Shown: positions 15,448-29,247 of the stretch, one piece after another
How positions within the stretch are numbered: the first letter of the stretch is position 1
Layout: each line of letters begins with the position of its first letter
Source of the DNA: Armatimonadota bacterium
GTDB taxonomy: Bacteria > Armatimonadota > Zipacnadia > Zipacnadales > VGFC01
Direction of reading: 5' to 3'
DNA length: 33,136 nt
Assembly: GCA_016869045.1 (NCBI GenBank)
Contig: VGFC01000031.1
Span: forward strand, 1 to 33,136
Notes under the pieces: generated by a model
Database searches by the model: none
Told to the model about the DNA's origin: nothing
What the model saw: only the letters and a program-made list of their open reading frames with translations
Position numbers and translations under genes: made by a program

Positions 15448-15516
15448 AGAGCCTATCCCGAAACTCGGACGGCGACAGGCAGAAATGCCTGTCCTCCGAG
15501 TTTCGGGATAGGCTCT
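15448..15516. repeat. 69-nt near-perfect palindrome upstream of GH3 start
   Basis: Two perfect 22-nt arms (15448-15469 and 15495-15516) enclose a small internal loop (CGGC against C). Inside is a perfect 8-bp stem GACAGGCA/TGCCTGTC capped by GAAA, a tetraloop of the stable GNRA class. It lies between the divergent GH3 and beta-propeller genes, and its near end abuts the GH3 Shine-Dalgarno. It could be a REP/MITE-type element or a transcript structure that controls GH3 translation. No transposase or target duplication was recognised. Confidence 0.8.
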
Positions 15517-18720: not shown

Positions 18721-18771
18721 GGGGGCGTGATGAATCACGCCCCCACACGCGGGCGCGATGAATCGCGCCCC
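18721..18771. repeat. Paired palindromic repeats (locus 1)
   Basis: Hairpin 1 has arms GGGGGCGTGAT (18721-18731) and ATCACGCCCCC (18734-18744). Hairpin 2 has arms GGGCGCGAT (18751-18759) and ATCGCGCCC (18762-18770). Both have a GA centre. They lie between a stop codon and the next ribosome-binding site. The same paired arrangement recurs at 29154-29203. The GCGATGAATCGC core creates false ATG starts upstream of the next gene. Confidence 0.85.
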
Positions 18772-18796
18772 TACCTGGCGGAGGTTGGGAGACAGC

Positions 18797-27960: not shown

Positions 27961-29151
27961 ATGAGCCGGCTCTGTGCGTGCATGGTGCTCATCGTTCTGG
28001 GCTGGGGTCTGGCGGCGGATGAGCCGCAAGTCGGCGCGGGGGTGTCGCTGTCTCCGCCGCAGGAGCGGACGCTGGGCGACTACGGCGGACACGGGAACCA
28101 CCGCCAGCGGACGATCACCGCGAGCTTCAGCTTCGGCAAGAACCCCTACGCGATCTCGTATCAGGCGTGCATCGATCCGGCCCACGGCGAGCAGGTCTCG
28201 CCGCTGGAGGGCTACATCGGGATGCCGCAGCCGGTCAGCACCGGCTGGTATCACGGCGGCTTCCTGTTCGTGCAGCTCAACGGGCAGGACATCGGCACGA
28301 CACCGCTCAGCAGCATGACGGTCGCGGAGAGCGGCGACCGCGCGATCCTGGACATGGTCTGGCACCACGCGATCGCCAACGTGCGGGTTCGTTTCCTGGG
28401 ACTGCCGAACCACGATGGGCTGTACTGCGAGATCGCGCTGGAGCCGAAGCAGGAGATCACCTCCATCGTGGTGCAGGCGCGCTGCTATCCCAGCTTCTTC
28501 ACTTCGTGGAATCACCGGGACGGCGCCCGGCGCATCTGGACGCCCGGCGCGCTGGTCGAGCAAGGGCAAGACGTCACCGTGCTGGCGGCGGACAACTGGT
28601 GGGCAGTGTGCTACGACGAGGTCTTCGACGTGGCGAGAGGTGAGGGCGACGGGCCGTGCGCCCTGATGCTCCTGCCCCAGGAGGCCGCCGACGTTCGGTT
28701 CAACCCACAGAGCTACCCGGTGGACACGTGGATCACGTACCGGCCCGACCAGCGGCGCCTGCACCTGGCGTTCTGGAAGTACCCGGGTCGCACGAATGCC
28801 GATGTGCTCGCGGAGATGACTGTGGACGCCGACACCATCCGCAACGAACTCGCGACGACGGACTTCACGCCGGCGGCGGTCAAGGACCTGGACATCGCGG
28901 CCCTGCGCGCGGAAGTCGAACGGGCGACGCAGTCGGAGGCGGTGAAGGAGTACCTCGGGGATCGGCTCGCTGAGGTGCAGGCGTGGCTCGCGGGGATCCA
29001 GGGACACGATCCCAATTCGGAACGACCCGAATTGGGTCATGTCCCTGGATTCCCGCGCATCGAGGCCGAGGAGAAGCTGCTGGCGTCGGTGGGGAAGTAC
29101 TACGGGTTCATGTGGGAAGTGAGGTTGGCGGAGTTGTTGGCGGGGCTGTGA
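27961..29151 (+). CDS. Exported protein of unknown function with in-frame palindromic insert
   Basis: 396 aa from ATG 27961 with AGGAGGTGG immediately upstream. Signal peptide about 1-19 (RLCACMVLIVLGWGLAA). The first 300 residues are beta-rich (ITASFSFGKNPYAISYQA, GWYHGGFLFVQLNGQDIG, LYCEIALEPKQEITSIVVQ, WITYRPDQRRLHLAFWKYPG), like a sugar-binding sandwich. A helical tail follows (about 300-396, ALRAEVERATQSEAVKEYLG, EKLLASVGKYYGFMWEVRLA). I do not recognise the family. Between the two tail helices, about 23 codons coincide with a 69-nt palindrome (28989-29057), giving GIQGHDPNSERPELGHVPGF. This looks like an inserted element that kept the frame. Paired hairpins follow the stop. Confidence 0.7.
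   Translation: MSRLCACMVLIVLGWGLAADEPQVGAGVSLSPPQERTLGDYGGHGNHRQRTITASFSFGKNPYAISYQACIDPAHGEQVSPLEGYIGMPQPVSTGWYHGGFLFVQLNGQDIGTTPLSSMTVAESGDRAILDMVWHHAIANVRVRFLGLPNHDGLYCEIALEPKQEITSIVVQARCYPSFFTSWNHRDGARRIWTPGALVEQGQDVTVLAADNWWAVCYDEVFDVARGEGDGPCALMLLPQEAADVRFNPQSYPVDTWITYRPDQRRLHLAFWKYPGRTNADVLAEMTVDADTIRNELATTDFTPAAVKDLDIAALRAEVERATQSEAVKEYLGDRLAEVQAWLAGIQGHDPNSERPELGHVPGFPRIEAEEKLLASVGKYYGFMWEVRLAELLAGL
28989..29057. repeat. 69-nt palindrome inside a coding sequence
   Basis: Arms 28989-29020 and 29027-29057 are reverse complements apart from two substitutions and one unpaired base. The loop is about 6 nt. The core ATCCAGGGACA pairs with TGTCCCTGGAT, and CCCAATTCGG with CCGAATTGGG. The length is a multiple of three and the host frame stays open. 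The composition (AATTC) differs from the surrounding GC-rich codons. Confidence 0.8.
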
Positions 29152-29153
29152 GC

Positions 29154-29203
29154 GGGCGCCATGAATGGCGCCCCTACACGATTGGGCGCGATGAATCGCG
29201 CCC
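29154..29203. repeat. Paired palindromic repeats (locus 2)
   Basis: Hairpin 1 has arms GGGCGCCAT (29154-29162) and ATGGCGCCC (29165-29173). Hairpin 2 has arms GGGCGCGAT (29184-29192) and ATCGCGCCC (29195-29203). Both have a GA centre and are followed by CTAC. The spacing between centres is 30 bp, close to the 28 bp at locus 1 (18721). The pair starts three bases after the preceding stop codon. Confidence 0.85.
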
Positions 29204-29247
29204 CTACATGAGGCGGAAGAACTGGCGGTTACCGAAGGAGGAGGACC

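Follow-up and report, generated by a model that had tools for sequence, protein, structure and literature searches.

The route by which palindromes such as the Rickettsia palindromic elements (RPEs) end up in frame within proteins, and the agent that mobilizes them, are unsettled questions. They are raised here by a near-perfect inverted repeat that spans positions 28989-29057 of the window (the whole 33,136-nt stretch of Armatimonadota DNA that was analyzed). A sequence-only reading had described this repeat as an almost fully paired, 69-nt (23-codon) apparent insertion in a protein gene, placed between two predicted tail helices. The pairing is borne out: 28989-29012/29034-29057 is among the strongest inverted repeats in a window-wide listing, and the folding energy is -67.5 kcal/mol, against -39.95 +/- 3.65 for shuffled sequences (z -7.55, 0/200). 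An Rfam search gave no match. The palindrome is thus real, but its extent needs correction, as comparison across the repeat family described below gives a repeated unit of 63 nt, or 21 codons (28992-29054). The three outer CGC/GCG pairs of the 69-nt version are local and lie outside the family unit. Base pairing beyond the unit is at chance level in 94 copies, which rejects entry into pre-existing host palindromes; a long pairing extension at C354 is a single case. The features of the locus are as follows:

27961-29151, forward strand: host gene for a 396-aa protein (open reading frame; orthologues in 29 of the 61 genomes searched; structure model)
28992-29054, forward strand: palindromic repeat copy, 63 nt (21 codons), encoding most of residues 344-365 (AGIQGHDPNSERPELGHVPGFP)
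28992-29019, forward strand: 5' arm of the hairpin (fold and pair counts)
29001-29008, forward strand: near-invariant core GGGACACG; the family consensus GGGGACAC fits the GGGGWSAS motif (PMC3733652)
29020-29027, forward strand: hairpin loop region, the site of most of the 62/63/64-nt length variation
29028-29054, forward strand: 3' arm of the hairpin (fold and pair counts)

The host protein, in which the element is indeed in frame, consists of an N-terminal signal-like stretch, a beta-rich body and a helical tail, and has no Pfam match. Orthologues from 12 related genomes align along its entire length and across the insertion site. In these orthologues the linker between the tail helices is variable (about 11-15 residues), lacks the element peptide and is non-palindromic; the corresponding linker of the window protein is 22 residues long, and the element encodes 21 of these. 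Orthologues carrying the same peptide without palindromy, which would mark it as native, were looked for and did not occur. One of the 12, G001, is the only genome of the same genus, and its orthologue has a 14-residue linker with no palindromy. The placement between two tail helices also agrees with the AlphaFold model, in which residues 348-364 (pLDDT <50) lie between helices 334-345 and 366-395; the model predicts the insert to be a low-confidence, disordered interhelix loop. The 21-codon element has displaced most of a native 14-residue linker. The expected insertion of 20-25 residues is therefore supported as an in-frame event, but not as a pure addition, the net gain being only 8 residues.

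The CAGGGACA...TGTCCCTG element recurs elsewhere in the genome. A BLAST search with the core returned 40 scored loci, of which 29 were used to train a covariance model; this identified at least 96 full copies and one fragment, dispersed through the 7.9-Mb genome (a lower bound, since scores were computed for 150 of the 4946 initial candidates). The copies measure 61-65 nt, mostly 62-64, and share the consensus GGGAATTCGGGGACACGATCCCAATTCGnTACGACCGAATTGGGTCATGTCCCCGAATTCCC, whose ends are GGGAATTC / GAATTCCC. The hairpin is supported by covariation: among 26 distinct sequences, standard pairs make up 98.8% of the pair cells and eight pairs have changed on both sides, which none of 500 shuffles matched. 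Across 95 copies the outer arms vary yet tend to remain complementary; within the core, the GGGAC/GTCCC portion hardly changes, and GGGACA is near-invariant. From this we infer that the fixed core is recognized by a protein and that the arms are constrained mainly to pair. Half copies (single arms) adjoin full copies at L011, L019, L086 and L095, some of them also in frame. Two copies, L151 (C107:10449) and L152 (C320:4054), have identical immediate flanks, which suggests that a segment was duplicated or that the assembly includes strain variants.

The window contains other repeats as well. The palindrome at 15448-15516, also 69 nt long, belongs to a separate dispersed family with five near-full copies, including the one in the window, and its inner 24 nt (GACAGGC..GCCTGTC type) recur in dozens of further places. 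A link between this palindrome and the element at 28992-29054 was rejected, and their equal length, noted in the earlier reading, is a coincidence. In addition, pairs of 25-nt palindromic repeats (GGGCGCNATGAATNGCGCCCCTACA; zero expected by chance) occur at 18723-18775 and at 29154-29208, the latter pair directly 3' of the stop codon of the host gene.

Many copies of the family are associated with coding sequence. About 28 of the 96 lie in frame inside open reading frames with coding signal on both sides, as assigned by the stop-aware version of a simple codon score, which supersedes a stricter classification (18 in frame, 4 out of frame). The window copy scores marginally under the threshold on the 3' side, which is short, and is counted among the 28 by hand, because its orthologues prove the host gene. 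One further copy is in frame but carries a stop. Eleven copies have same-strand coding in different frames. In all 11 the upstream open reading frame terminates either within the element or no more than about 90 nt from it, several times at a TGA that the element supplies (tail NSGT*), and a second open reading frame is open across or just after the element. These copies look like gene junctions, so that no clear frame-breaking insertion was found among the at least 96 copies classified; even if all 11 were breaks, the in-frame bias (28 versus 11) has p about 1e-6. Each in-frame copy should, on translation, yield a flexible stretch of about 21 residues (an example of a predicted junction peptide is AGIQGHDPNSER). 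Their hosts include a PabB/TrpE-like enzyme, a DUF58 protein, and pyruvate-formate-lyase-like, GH2, NAGidase and Fer2/FAD proteins, in which the inserts sit in linkers and loops.

Element-derived TGA stops at gene ends are found at L009, L110, L111, L119, L130 and L134 (C356:6703, C208:2619, C159, C2:65954, C163 and C365:2838), where they give the upstream protein a new carboxy-terminal tail such as NSGT. The reverse orientation reads ...CATGACC..., and the ATG that overlaps the TGA could restart translation.

The consensus is stop-free in five of the six frames, and in-gene copies use all five of these and never the closed one. Of the 30 copies that measure exactly 63 nt, 17 are in frame, compared to 12 of 66 for other lengths, the in-frame copy with a stop being counted among the 12 (p = 0.0003); this enrichment holds when copies adjoining half elements are left out (p = 0.0006). 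We give an even chance to the view that survivorship is the whole account, that is, that elements insert at random, that genic copies are mostly purged, and that neither the peptide nor the length classes signify anything more. With about 28 of 96 copies inside genes, in bacterial DNA that is generally mostly coding, genic copies look depleted; the position of inserts in linkers and loops points in the same direction, and the open frames could be due to chance, since shuffles are open at that level in about 4-7% of cases. What survivorship alone leaves unaccounted for is the 63-nt class together with the five open frames.

The orthologous site was found in G001 for eight copies, including the one in the window, and all eight sites lack the element; a ninth candidate (C356) was uninformative, as the site lies outside the G001 contig. 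Comparison with solved homologues likewise shows a 17-residue gap at the element of the PabB-like protein. None of the eight sites gained as much as the length of the element (or of element plus half copy), and roughly 8-39 nt of host sequence are missing (sign test, p = 0.008), a shortfall that a simple clean insertion without later trimming does not predict. The flanks of 95 copies show no significant excess of 3-8 nt direct repeats that would indicate target-site duplication, and no flanking target motif was found around the copies. These observations raise the possibility, which we consider less likely than not, that a single replacing event (insertion with deletion, or template switching at the hairpin) swaps the native loop for the element, rather than a clean insertion followed by trimming. 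The net loss at every informative site, the half copies beside full copies and the absent target-site duplication all fit such an event. The compared loops evolve fast, however, and at these loci G001 shares only about 54-85% identity, so that later trimming by codon multiples would look alike, and the excess of 63-nt copies in genes is what a clean first insertion would give. At the distance of G001, either loss during insertion or subsequent trimming of the variable loops could account for the missing bases.

The family is genus-restricted: G001 contains about 20 diverged matches (both strands counted), and each of the other genomes searched within the taxonomic order at most two weak ones. 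The genome contains 11 Y1_Tnp matches. A search for the consensus repeat around all 11 found none flanked by this exact repeat in this draft metagenome-assembled genome of 723 contigs, from which the cognate transposase could be missing. The Y1 gene on C183 has a palindrome of this architecture on each side, and the family model recognizes the two at E about 1e-9:

L038 (C183), 1140-1210 and 1893-1963: 67-nt sibling palindromes around a Y1 transposase gene

In G001, too, a palindrome near a Y1 gene is matched by the family model (E 7e-6). The sibling palindrome is itself dispersed, with about 40 scored copies. It was considered as an equally in-frame element and rejected, with two of 19 copies in frame and two more with a stop. 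The 3' end of the transposase open reading frame on C183 contains one of its two palindromes in frame. At L040 (C140), another Y1 gene is flanked on both sides (1260-1440 and 1990-2160) by short GGGGACAGCAT/GGGGACACCAT hairpins, which may represent a third specificity of the same kind.

The absence of target-site duplication is typical of IS200/IS605-type transposition and fits a RAYT/TIRYT-like class. Together, the sibling palindromes at the Y1 gene and the GGGGWSAS consensus make RAYT/TIRYT-like mobilization the best inference, short of a demonstration. A miniature element (MITE) moved by a DDE transposase, with terminal inverted repeats and target-site duplication, would also be short, palindromic, dispersed and gene-less, but we regard it as improbable, given the lack of direct-repeat excess or target motif at the flanks and the attachment of the sibling family to a Y1 gene instead. 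A native protein sequence that is palindromic by chance, or an RNA structure selected in one gene, could draw on the strong RNA-level fold, but is refuted by the orthologues without the element and by the same DNA at about 96 dispersed, unrelated places, in both orientations and five frames.

The window feature is thus best read, with a probability of roughly 80%, as a copy of a genus-specific, non-autonomous palindrome of the RAYT/TIRYT type that is tolerated in protein loops. The palindrome would have spread through this Armatimonadota genome by means of a Y1 (HUH) transposase of the RAYT/TIRYT-like kind, whose substrate would be single-stranded hairpins that carry a GGGGWSAS-type core. Copies that landed in frame within interdomain linkers or loops at the protein surface would be tolerated, because the element is stop-free in most frames and one length class is an exact multiple of codons, and would be translated as a peptide that is probably near-neutral; in the window gene, it is the linker joining the last two helices that gave way to the element. 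A more ambitious proposal, which we consider possible but doubtful, is that a codon-compatible RAYT/TIRYT palindrome (63 nt, five open frames) enters genes by a loop-replacing event and constitutes an independently evolved system outside the Rickettsiales with an identifiable transposase class. The genome offers an independent case in a distant phylum, with empty sites in a same-genus relative and length classes that test frame selection, and the sibling family attached to a Y1 transposase makes the mechanism testable. It also suggests that mobile DNA remodels the loops of metabolic enzymes such as the PabB/TrpE-like protein.

Among known systems, the RPEs, which the earlier reading named as precedent, are the right functional analogue. 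As outlined in PMC10969869, RPEs (Ogata et al. 2000, 2002) are elements of about 150 bp that each encode a conserved ORF peptide. RPEs and the present element are both dispersed palindromes, mobile by inference, that lie in frame inside many unrelated genes, add a peptide and are absent from orthologues (here, 28 in-frame copies and eight of eight empty sites). Membership in the RPE family is not supported by length or host group: RPEs are longer (about 100-150 nt) and come from Rickettsia, whereas the present element is 62-65 nt and genus-restricted in Armatimonadota, and it uses five frames where each RPE has one conserved peptide. In architecture it corresponds to the TIR palindromes linked to transposases.

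The terminal inverted repeats (TIRs) of TIRYT (RAYT-like) transposases carry a GGGGWSAS motif and form dispersed families (Di Nocera et al. 2013; PMC3733652). The present element shares with them the motif in its arm, self-complementary arms, dispersal and sibling palindromes that flank a Y1 transposase; it differs in that no transposase flanked by the exact repeat was found, and in its frequent in-frame coding positions, which are not described for TIR families in PMC3733652. REPs lying inside open reading frames have been described, including intragenic GTAG/CGTC REPs in Opitutus terrae and R. conorii (PMC3733652). Like the present element, these are palindromic repeats encoding about 20-30 residues, but the Armatimonadota element has no GTAG or CGTC tag at its end and forms a single long hairpin, in contrast to the 20-40-nt REP. 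Finally, with REPINs (PMC3116915) it has in common two inverted arms in one hairpin, a non-autonomous nature and a probable link to RAYTs, whereas it is shorter, of other sequence and often inside genes.
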